Source: a virus. Taken from it: a stretch of DNA of 64,000 bases. This document shows, one piece after another, positions 8,207 through 58,119 of the stretch. The notes under the pieces are model-generated. The model did no database searches. It was not told where the DNA came from and worked only from the letters and a program-made list of their open reading frames with translations. Within the stretch, counting starts at the first letter, position 1; each line of letters opens with the position of its first letter. Location of the stretch: positions 62,001 through 126,000 of the IMG/VR virus record IMGVR_UViG_3300043446_003158; one strand, 5' to 3'. The position numbers were made by a program, and so were the translations under genes.

Positions 8207-8410
8207 TCAGAAGATCCCGAAGAAGAGTTTGCCAGTGATAAAATAAGAAATAGCACCAGCAAAAATCCCGACCATTGCCCAGCGCCCATTATACATCTCC
8301 GTAGTTTGCATGGGGGTCAGAAGACCTTTACGTTTGTATTCTTGATAAACCATTTCAGGCTCTTTGGCCCACATGTTTTGTTGTCCGTACTCATTAGTTG
8401 TTACAGTCAT
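8207..8410 (-). CDS. hli: High-light-inducible protein (Hli), long
   Basis: 67 residues from MTVTTNEYGQQNMWAKEPEM; a polar N-terminal half then TTEMYNGRWAMVGIFAGAIS, the single chlorophyll-binding helix with E..NGR..M. Full length for an Hli. It has its own promoter (8438-8466) embedded in the terminator of the glycan operon, so it can be expressed independently of it. Confidence 0.95.
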   Translation of the reverse strand: MTVTTNEYGQQNMWAKEPEMVYQEYKRKGLLTPMQTTEMYNGRWAMVGIFAGAISYFITGKLFFGIF

Positions 8411-8437: not shown

Positions 8438-8466
8438 ATTATATAGCAAAAATAAAGAGGGGTCAA
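8438..8466 (-). promoter_or_regulatory. hli promoter overlapping a terminator
   Basis: TTGACC (8461-8466), 17 bp, TATAAT (8438-8443). The -35 lies in the hairpin and the spacer is the 3' arm plus T-tract of the preceding terminator. Confidence 0.8.
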
Positions 8467-8476
8467 GACCCTCTTT
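8448..8476 (-). terminator. Terminator of the glycan operon
   Basis: Minus-strand hairpin AAAGAGG...CCTCTTT with inner GTC/GAC pairs, followed by ATTTTT. It closes the long operon that starts at gmd. Confidence 0.75.
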
Positions 8477-20743: not shown

Positions 20744-20772
20744 ATTATACTAAAAAAGATGAGTTTATGCAA
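20744..20772 (-). promoter_or_regulatory. Glycan operon promoter within terminator
   Basis: TTGCAT (20767-20772), 17 bp, TATAAT (20744-20749). The -35 overlaps the hairpin loop and the spacer contains the 3' arm and T-tract of the preceding terminator. Confidence 0.7.
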
Positions 20773-20781
20773 CTCATCTTT
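20752..20781 (-). terminator. Terminator after the methyltransferase gene
   Basis: Minus-strand stem AAAGATGAGTT/AACTCATCTTT around a 5-nt loop, then a T-tract. Perfect 11-bp stem. Confidence 0.9.
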
Positions 20782-24385: not shown

Positions 24386-24414
24386 AGGATACATTAAAAA
24401 GGGGAGTTTGTCAA
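24386..24414 (-). promoter_or_regulatory. Promoter inside terminator hairpin
   Basis: TTGACA (24409-24414) sits in the loop/3' arm of the terminator at 24396-24420; 17 bp later TATCCT (24386-24391). Would drive the 54-residue gene and tRNA-Val. Confidence 0.7.
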
Positions 24415-24420
24415 CTCCCC
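24396..24420 (-). terminator. Terminator after the outer-membrane-like gene
   Basis: Minus strand GGGGAGTT-GACA-AACTCCCC followed by TTTTT; perfect 8-bp stem. Confidence 0.9.
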
Positions 24421-30128: not shown

Positions 30129-30305
30129 TTATTCTCCGATATATTCTAAAGAGTATATATCATGATCCTCAATATCAGGATTCAACCATTCACTAAACTC
30201 TAATTGAATAGCACGAGCATTTTCAAGATCTTGTTCAGATAGTGTATGAATCCTATCAACTGCCCAATCATGAGTTTGGCGAAGTGTTTGCTCCAAAGTT
30301 ACCAT
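30129..30305 (-). CDS. Small acidic hypothetical protein
   Basis: 58 residues, MVTLEQTLRQTHDWAVDRIH onward, acidic C-terminus (NPDIEDHDIYSLEYIGE). Overlaps the GIY-YIG gene by 38 nt in another frame. A promoter-like TTGACG/17/TACAAT (30340-30368) lies just upstream. Confidence 0.5.
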   Translation of the reverse strand: MVTLEQTLRQTHDWAVDRIHTLSEQDLENARAIQLEFSEWLNPDIEDHDIYSLEYIGE

Positions 30306-30717
30306 AATCTTTTCGCATATAGCGTCCTAGAATATTACTATTGTAGTATGCTGGTGTTCCGTCGTCAAGTGCTTCTTTTAATACATTATTCAAAAAAAGT
30401 TGTTTTGTTTCTTCGTAGTTACAATCTCCTTTTGTTTTATGAAGAGACAATATCTCTCTATTGAAAATATCTTTATTACATTTCTTATAATCTTCCTTTA
30501 ACTCTGGACAAGAACCATAATACTTTTTCCAATCAGATTCTTGCTTTACTCTTCTTTTTTTACCTGGAGGAGTTCTATAAGACCAAAAATATTTTCTACC
30601 AATATACTTTCTTCCTGTAACTATATTAGTAATCAAATAAACAAATCCAAAGTATTCGTTAATATCATTAGAGTCGAATACTTCACCATTATATTTCCAA
30701 GGGTTCTCATAGCTCAT
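30268..30717 (-). CDS. GIY-YIG-type endonuclease
   Basis: 149 residues. FGFVYLITNIVTGRKYIGRK (GIY-YIG variant, Tyr and Arg seen), a basic insertion (PPGKKRRVKQESDW), ...FNREILSL and a catalytic Glu in GDCNYEETKQLFLN, then NSNILGRYMR. Single-domain, no recognition domain beyond it, so it could be a homing or mobile endonuclease, or a repair nuclease. No intron is visible nearby. Promoter at 30766-30795. Confidence 0.8.
   Translation of the reverse strand: MSYENPWKYNGEVFDSNDINEYFGFVYLITNIVTGRKYIGRKYFWSYRTPPGKKRRVKQESDWKKYYGSCPELKEDYKKCNKDIFNREILSLHKTKGDCNYEETKQLFLNNVLKEALDDGTPAYYNSNILGRYMRKDYGNFGANTSPNS
30340..30368 (-). promoter_or_regulatory. Promoter within GIY-YIG gene
   Basis: TTGACG (30363-30368), 17 bp, TACAAT (30340-30345), placed to serve the small gene at 30305. 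Confidence 0.5.
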
Positions 30718-30765: not shown

Positions 30766-30795
30766 ATTCTAGCAATAAAAAAGGGGGTTTGTCAA
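30766..30795 (-). promoter_or_regulatory. GIY-YIG promoter inside terminator hairpin
   Basis: TTGACA (30790-30795), 18 bp, TAGAAT (30766-30771); the -35 is the loop and 3' arm start of the terminator at 30777-30802. Confidence 0.65.
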
Positions 30796-30802
30796 CCCCC
30801 TT
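30777..30802 (-). terminator. Terminator of the Ala/Lys-rich gene
   Basis: Perfect 9-bp stem AAGGGGGTT/AACCCCCTT, 4-nt loop, then a T-tract on the minus strand. Confidence 0.9.
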
Positions 30803-30822
30803 GCATCAAATTAAAATCAAAT

Positions 30823-31861: not shown

Positions 31862-31869
31862 TATTTATA
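31862..31869 (-). promoter_or_regulatory. Late promoter TATAAATA
   Basis: Exact T4-type late box 26 nt upstream of the Ala/Lys-rich gene, immediately after the T-tract of the preceding terminator. Confidence 0.8.
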
Positions 31870-31893
31870 AAAAAAGAGGGTCCTAGGACCCTC
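31869..31893 (-). terminator. Terminator after nrdB region
   Basis: Stem GAGGGTCC/GGACCCTC, 2-nt loop, then TTTTTTT on the minus strand; its base overlaps the stop codon of the 53-residue gene. Confidence 0.9.
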
Positions 31894-32053
31894 ATGTTAC
31901 ATCATCATTTTTTTTACCTAACCACTCTTTTTCATAATCATAATCACCAAACAAGAAATCATCGCATTCTGCTGCTTCTCTATAAGCATTTAAAATTTCT
32001 TGTTCCACCCATTCATCATAGTTGGAATCCTGAGAAAGTATCTTTGGTAACAT
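31892..32053 (-). CDS. Small hypothetical protein overlapping nrdB end
   Basis: 53 residues, MLPKILSQDSNYDEWVEQEI onward, acidic and aromatic. The first 38 nt overlap nrdB in another frame; the ribosome-binding site is weak, so coupling to nrdB is assumed. Function unknown. Confidence 0.5.
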   Translation of the reverse strand: MLPKILSQDSNYDEWVEQEILNAYREAAECDDFLFGDYDYEKEWLGKKNDDVT

Positions 32054-38082: not shown

Positions 38083-38090
38083 TATTTATA
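38083..38090 (-). promoter_or_regulatory. Late promoter TATAAATA
   Basis: Exact T4-type late box 31 nt before the virion-type gene, directly after the T-tract of the terminator. Confidence 0.8.
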
Positions 38091-38117
38091 AAAAAAGGAG
38101 ACCTTTGTCTGGTCTCC
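38090..38117 (-). terminator. Terminator of the 427-residue gene
   Basis: Minus-strand stem GGAGACC/GGTCTCC with a 7-nt loop and T-tract; the late promoter begins at its end. Confidence 0.85.
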
Positions 38118-38144
38118 CATGTTTTTGGTTTTCTAATGAGATTT

Positions 38145-47335: not shown

Positions 47336-47364
47336 ATTTTAGCAAGAAAAAAAGGAGGTGTCAA
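47336..47364 (-). promoter_or_regulatory. Promoter of Sm-like/gp43/uvsX region inside terminator
   Basis: TTGACA (47359-47364), 17 bp, TAAAAT (47336-47341); the -35 is in the 3' arm of the hairpin and the T-tract is the spacer. Confidence 0.75.
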
Positions 47365-47386
47365 CTGGATTTTGCCAGTTACCTCC
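47345..47386 (-). terminator. Terminator of the hsp20 gene
   Basis: Two-part stem GGAGGT/ACCTCC and ACTGG/CCAGT on the minus strand, then TTTTTTT. Confidence 0.8.
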
Positions 47387-47418
47387 CGTGGCATAGCGCC
47401 GACGATATTCAATTTTAT

Positions 47419-53040: not shown

Positions 53041-53075
53041 AAAAAAACAAAGGGAAGGCATATCTTTACCTTCCC
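53041..53075 (-). terminator. Terminator-like hairpin overlapping transcription start
   Basis: Minus-strand GGGAAGG/CCTTCCC with a 10-nt loop, then TTTGTTTTTTT. The promoter at 53078-53106 starts within the 5' arm, so new transcripts cannot form the full stem. Confidence 0.8.
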
Positions 53076-53077
53076 CA

Positions 53078-53106
53078 ATTATATCAGAACGGAGCAGGTT
53101 GGTCAA
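53078..53106 (-). promoter_or_regulatory. Promoter of the DUF3310-gp45-gp44 operon
   Basis: TTGACC (53101-53106), 17 bp, TATAAT (53078-53083), inside the end of cobS. Confidence 0.85.
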
Positions 53107-57975: not shown

Positions 57976-58119
57976 TTAGATATTTATAAATGAAGAAGCG
58001 CCCCCTTGGAGGCGCTTCTTGAGTGCTTGGCGTCGTGCCTTTGCTTGTCGGAGTGCTTGAGGTTTAAGTTTCCTCTTCTGTTCCTTTTTGGAGTGGTGTT
58101 GCCAGTTGGGGGTGTTCAT
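57976..58119 (-). CDS. Basic peptide running through a terminator
   Basis: 47 residues with Lys/Arg/Gln-rich repeats (KKEQKRKLKPQALRQAKARR QALKKRL). The frame continues through the terminator hairpin (57993-58020) and the late box (57981-57988) to stop at 57976. Weak ribosome-binding site. May be a real basic peptide or a chance frame. Confidence 0.45.
   Translation of the reverse strand: MNTPNWQHHSKKEQKRKLKPQALRQAKARRQALKKRLQGGASSFINI
57981..57988 (-). promoter_or_regulatory. Late promoter TATAAATA
   Basis: Exact late box 19 nt before the 72-residue gene, directly downstream of a terminator. Confidence 0.8.
57993..58020 (-). terminator. Terminator of the replication operon segment
   Basis: Perfect 10-bp stem AAGAAGCGCC/GGCGCTTCTT, 8-nt loop, then CATTTATA; T-tract poor, but the stem is very stable. 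Confidence 0.7.

Follow-up and report, generated by a model that had tools for sequence, protein, structure and literature searches.

Five intergenic sites of a viral genome were analyzed, and each of them is very probably a dual-purpose element in which a predicted intrinsic terminator and an early-type sigma-70 promoter share the same bases. This reading is carried by the geometry of the parts, by their enrichment over chance, by their conservation in related phages and by compensatory changes of the stem around a fixed -35 box. The sites lie in a stretch of 64 kb (called the window) of a record of 177,187 bases (177 kb) with 34% GC, and the virus is a T4-like cyanophage as judged by its similarity to Synechococcus phages.

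In the RNA, where the upstream transcript ends, the G-rich/C-rich hairpin and the U-tract would form an intrinsic terminator; in the double-stranded DNA the same bases would form an early-type promoter, recognized by the host RNA polymerase and its main sigma factor. The -35 box would be supplied by the hairpin loop, an internal loop or the 3′ arm, the 3′ arm and the T-tract would make up the spacer of 17–18 bp, and the -10 box would follow. The hairpin would be absent from the downstream transcript, and the element would therefore end the upstream unit and leave the downstream one unattenuated, so that adjacent genes of different timing could be neighbours. Both termination and initiation would be expected at each site in infected cells, as far as can be read from the sequence. 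An attenuator role was considered and ruled out, the hairpin being upstream of the expected start.

Composite sites in the window

Nearly all long genes of the window are on the minus strand, and all five sites were found on this strand between co-directional genes (Table 1). The preliminary description had proposed one common terminator-promoter design for the five sites without naming the strand, and all five hold the described parts: a GC-rich hairpin, a T-tract and a host-type promoter with its -35 box in the hairpin and its -10 box past the T-tract. The proposed spacer of 17–18 bp was also confirmed, with 17 bp at sites 1, 2, 3 and 5 and 18 bp at site 4. The gap between the flanking genes had been given as under 50 bp, which is wrong, since the measured gaps are 63–106 bp; of the supposed saving of space, the overlap of terminator and promoter (about 20–25 bp) stands and the shortness of the gaps does not.

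The layout is that of an intrinsic terminator, a GC-rich hairpin downstream of a stop codon with the U-tract directly after it, the stem of site 2 being AT-rich at its base. The hairpin folds of the five sites have z values of -2.6 to -5.6 against shuffles. The -35 box of site 2, TTGCAT, matches poorly, yet it is kept with a changed stem in S-SKS1 and S-SRM01.

Table 1. Predicted terminators and promoters in the window, with flanking genes and intergenic gaps of sites 1 to 5.
Feature	Position	Strand	Parts	Remarks
Site 1 terminator	8454..8476	-	hairpin AAAGAGGGTCTTGACCCCTCTTT, then ATTTTTG	fold -10.3 kcal/mol; compensatory changes in relatives; between glucosyltransferase and hli genes, gap 95 bp
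Site 1 sigma-70 promoter	8438..8466	-	TTGACC-17-TATAAT	for hli gene (8207-8410); -35 at 8466-8461, in loop/3′ arm
Site 2 terminator	20755..20781	-	hairpin AAAGATGAGTTGCATAAACTCATCTTT and T-tract	fold -12.9 kcal/mol; between methyltransferase-like and nucleotide-sugar epimerase genes, gap 63 bp
Site 2 promoter	20744..20772	-	TTGCAT-17-TATAAT	weak -35; for nucleotide-sugar epimerase gene
Site 3 terminator	24401..24420	-	hairpin GGGGAGTTGACAAACTCCCC and TTTTT	fold -14.6 kcal/mol; after Phage_OMP gene; between outer-membrane-type barrel gene and 54-residue unknown, gap 81 bp
Site 3 promoter	24386..24414	-	TTGACA-17-TATCCT	-35 at hairpin apex
Site 4 terminator	30779..30804	-	hairpin GCAAGGGGGTTGACAAACCCCCTTTT and T-tract	fold -15.3 kcal/mol; between unknown and SegE-type GIY-YIG gene, gap 105 bp
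Site 4 promoter	30766..30795	-	TTGACA-18-TAGAAT	for SegE-type GIY-YIG gene; homologues in IMG/VR, S-SKS1 and S-SRM01
Site 5 terminator	47353..47387	-	two-part hairpin, outer GGGAGGT/ACCTCC, inner ACTGG/CCAGT	fold -17.0 kcal/mol; after hsp20; between hsp20 and DUF6561 genes, gap 106 bp
Site 5 promoter	47336..47364	-	TTGACA-17-TAAAAT	TTGA unpaired in internal loop of hairpin
Class II, late	31862..31895	-	terminator running into TATAAATA	
Class II, late	38083..38120	-	terminator running into TATAAATA	
Class II, late	57981..58019	-	terminator, then TATAAATA	
Class III	53051..53106	-	TTGACC-17-TATAAT abutting 5′ side of terminator hairpin	expected start inside 5′ arm

Enrichment over chance

Four composites of the whole record reach a promoter score of at least 11 (by an approximate E. 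coli sigma-70 matrix), and all four are on the minus strand. The 12 dinucleotide shuffles, scanned on both strands, had a mean of 0.08 such composites per genome and a maximum of 1, and a chance origin of the composites is rejected. A sixth composite was located outside the window, at G000:C1:6863. The scanner used for these counts missed site 2, with its poor -35 box, and site 5, with its internal loop, and a second, fold-based finder was added, by which site 5 was recovered.

The motif search in related cyanophages, which had been suggested earlier, was run, and superimposed elements are present there. With the fold-based finder, limited to hairpins behind co-directional stop codons, 16 composites were counted in ten cyanophage genomes, where shifted windows predicted 2.8. 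Related phages are not independent, and counts from them overstate the number of events. When the start of the -35 box was plotted relative to the hairpin end in these genomes, a cluster was seen from -24 to -12, with the stretch from -11 to +4 empty and only a low background at other positions, together with a second cluster upstream of the hairpin that represents the class III arrangement described below. The 5′ arms are G-rich, with 144 G against 52 C in 35 composites.

A pattern in which the apex hairpin, the T run and TANAAT were fixed and spacers of 13–24 were allowed retrieved 97 stretches from IMG/VR, 62 of them distinct, and the spacer was 17 or 18 in 59 of the 62. From bacterial and archaeal genomes totalling 257 Gb, the same pattern retrieved only 20 stretches, with a spacer of 17–18 in 14 of 15 distinct ones; the design therefore arises, rarely, in assemblies of cellular genomes too. 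Many of these rare bacterial composites (L515-L534) are in Oscillospiraceae and other Clostridia.

Gene orientation and junctions

Cyanophage terminators with a nearby gene were sorted by the orientation of that gene, genes being called by a simple longest-ORF rule. An early or late composite was present at 35 of 130 that precede a co-directional gene and at 1 of 29 that precede a convergent gene (Fisher p = 0.006); for the early class alone the counts are 17/130 and 1/29, which is not significant (p = 0.20). The sole convergent exception is S-SRM01 179327, with a SegE-type gene oriented opposite to that of the window. In S-CREM1, a terminator between the gene for the single-stranded DNA binding protein and a convergent baseplate gene has a similar stem and T-tract, a GAAA loop and no -10 box.

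Similar cassettes adjoin different genes. For site 3 no BLAST relatives were found in the phage collection, and its relatives come instead from the IMG/VR pattern scan: the element joins the OMP gene to gene X in the window, a PstS-like gene to X in contig L076 and a PstS-like gene to gene Y in contig L020, the PstS-like gene being named by eye from its C-terminal sequence. Exchange of modules at the element would yield these combinations, as seen at one site in three contigs.

Genes of the SegE/SegD GIY-YIG type adjoin composites in this phage, in S-SRM01 (opposite orientation) and in KVP40 (L424 797-1228; window 30268-30717; L425 574-1269).

Late and class III arrangements

In the ten cyanophages, 20 terminators run into the T4-type late promoter TATAAATA, which lies 0–9 nt after the hairpin, against 0.3 expected, and in T4 itself there are 3 against 0.05 expected. 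These are referred to here as class II. Behind hsp20, some relatives of site 5 (L277, L306 and L324) carry the late form in place of the early one. In these three, the terminator and TATAAATA are placed between the inverted repeat TTTGACCGCA / TGCGGTCAAA.

In class III, the -10 box of the promoter abuts the 5′ side of the terminator hairpin. Further class III promoters are at G000:C1:61447-61418 and 579-562 (minus strand), and the evidence is weaker here, with 9 against 2.2 expected. A transcript begun at such a promoter would be missing part of the stem, and the complete hairpin would be present in read-through RNA alone.

Conservation in related phages and alternative explanations

The relatives of site 5 in one register comprise 17 distinct sequences, in which 99.5% of the cells are paired and four of the seven outer pairs have changed on both sides, against at most one in slid versions of the alignment. 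The sequences in a second register are fewer and show much the same, though less strongly supported. The TTGAC is invariant in both registers although its TTGA is unpaired in the RNA hairpin, and this constancy, at 17 bp from the -10 box, points to a -35 function, because a terminator would favour pairing or deletion of these bases.

A conserved GAATATCGTCGGCGC stands just after the hsp20 stop codon, upstream of site 5 (window ~47412-47393, minus strand; relatives among L265-L339), and it is retained even where the composite is absent (L296 and L335).

Of 62 distinct sequences for site 1, upstream of hli, 61 have TTGAC at 17–18 bp from the -10 box and 28 have a strong hairpin with a T-tract. 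Stems of differing sequence surround the same -35 box and two pairs have changed on both sides; one relative (L408) has kept the terminator at the hli locus and lost the -35 box. In about half of the distinct relatives the hli promoter thus persists although a strong hairpin is lacking; it does not need the hairpin, and the functions of termination and initiation separate in evolution. As judged from the relatives, evolution keeps both signals, the terminator and the promoter.

The pair of signals may be real and the overlap no more than compaction or a by-product of the joining of modules, with no interplay of the two functions. We regard this form of the dual-purpose reading as fairly probable. 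The separation of the functions in the hli relatives, the exchange of modules at the element with similar cassettes by different genes, and the same pair of signals in tandem, 9–28 nt apart, in phage RB49 all agree with it. The same overlap recurs in several registers, in several phage groups and in rare bacterial contigs, which speaks rather for some advantage over a tandem order, perhaps of size alone.

The preliminary description had expected termination and initiation to be tied together. Since termination would fall within the next promoter, a hand-off is conceivable in which the polymerase, on terminating in the T-tract, halts within the promoter and re-initiates there, so that upstream transcription would load the downstream promoter. 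In this reading T4-like phages would use the hand-off with both the early (-35 in the hairpin) and the late (T-tract into TATAAATA) promoters, in hosts without Rho. We consider such a device unlikely, and the separation of both functions at hli argues that it would not be obligatory.

After its release, RNA polymerase is able in vitro to slide and to start again from promoters close by (PMC6978380; recycling also in PMC11347151). The likeness to the present sites is the release of RNA at an intrinsic terminator near a promoter; the difference is that recycling was seen in vitro with the E. coli polymerase and with separate terminator and promoter, whereas here the two are superimposed and the host is cyanobacterial.

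The T4-like cyanophages are thought to use the unmodified host polymerase for early genes (PMC2984593), and cyanobacteria are without Rho (PMC13289151), an absence that rests on the literature, as the controls of our Rho search cross-matched. With an unmodified polymerase and no Rho, an intrinsic terminator would therefore be a natural way to end a unit. A canonical intrinsic terminator was reported at only 22% of the transcription units of Synechococcus elongatus, and cyanobacterial intrinsic terminators are poorly characterised (PMC13289151).

Inverted repeats over a -35 box are a common layout of operators, and in roughly half of the hli relatives the promoter lacks a strong hairpin; the sites might then be promoters only, with the repeat around the -35 box as the operator of a dimeric repressor and no termination. 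An operator would keep its sequence, whereas here the stem sequence varies with compensation and the repeat shifts its register around a fixed -35 box, and the G-rich 5′ arms with the T-tract are as in RNA terminators, which makes this reading very improbable. It is scarcely credible that the sites are terminators only, with TTGAC and the -10 box as chance matches aided by AT-rich DNA (34% GC) and by TTGACAA, a near inverted repeat that fits a hairpin apex easily, in view of the shuffle counts, the spacing of 17–18 locked in many contigs, the invariant TTGAC in the unpaired internal loop of site 5, the near absence of composites before convergent genes and the persistence of the hli promoter without the hairpin.

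For the dual-purpose element, the covariation points to an RNA-level terminator and a DNA-level promoter that are satisfied in the same 40 bases, in hosts lacking Rho. The natural variants with and without a hairpin on one promoter provide a ready set for asking whether termination feeds initiation.

Other RNA elements

An orphan abiF RNA (Rfam RF03085, 49.9 bits) was detected at 26356-26320 of the window, on the minus strand beside tRNA genes and with TTGACA-17-TATAAT just upstream; no Abi_2 gene was found in the record alongside it. It is also present in S-SRM01 at 184077-184113 and is possibly a decoy against host defence. A PhotoRC-II RNA (RF01717) is located near a psbA-like gene at 678-588 of the window, on the minus strand.

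Comparison with known systems

The PeSL (promoter-early stem-loop) motifs of T4-type phages are reportedly the subject of Arbiol et al. 2010 (doi 10.1093/gbe/evq006) and Comeau et al. 2014 (doi 10.1093/gbe/evu129). They are cited as motifs that combine a promoter with a terminator and that reportedly bring about the shuffling of gene modules; few candidates were found in cyanophage S-PM2, and this phage was judged distinct, without the dense PeSLs of other T4-like phages (PMC4503421). The idea of a composite promoter-terminator is thus not new in kind, being known from T4-type phages.

The likeness of our sites to PeSLs lies in a T4-like phage, an early-type sigma-70 promoter with a stem-loop at intergenic junctions, and the tie to module exchange. 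The sites carry a host-type promoter in a T4-like genome (TTGAC-17/18-TATAAT-like), the stem-loop is a hairpin with a T-tract and compensatory changes, and site 3 marks a junction of exchanged modules (one site, three contigs). The order of parts in RB49, a stem-loop followed by a separate promoter, was not found, and the copies are not near-identical, sharing by inspection the motif and the geometry and no extended sequence. The sites of the window most likely work like PeSLs; the different order of parts in RB49 and the lack of near-identical copies here leave strict membership unassigned.

The difference in order is one of arrangement. In RB49 the -35 box begins 9–28 nt after the hairpin, in tandem, whereas in the window the hairpin contains it and the T-tract is part of the spacer. 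The hairpin promoters of KVP40, for example AAAGGGTTGACAGATGTCAGCCCTTT-ttt-gTATGCT, are superimposed like the window sites, with the -35 box in the hairpin, a T-rich spacer and then the -10 box, and one of them adjoins a SegD GIY-YIG gene. Their -35 box is in the 5′ arm, paired with GTCA, whereas that of the window sites is in the loop, the internal loop or the 3′ arm. If such superimposed forms are counted as PeSLs, the window sites would not be excluded by the RB49 order of parts. Composite promoter-terminator motifs are hereby extended to cyanophages, where they were thought sparse, and a form with the late promoter is added.
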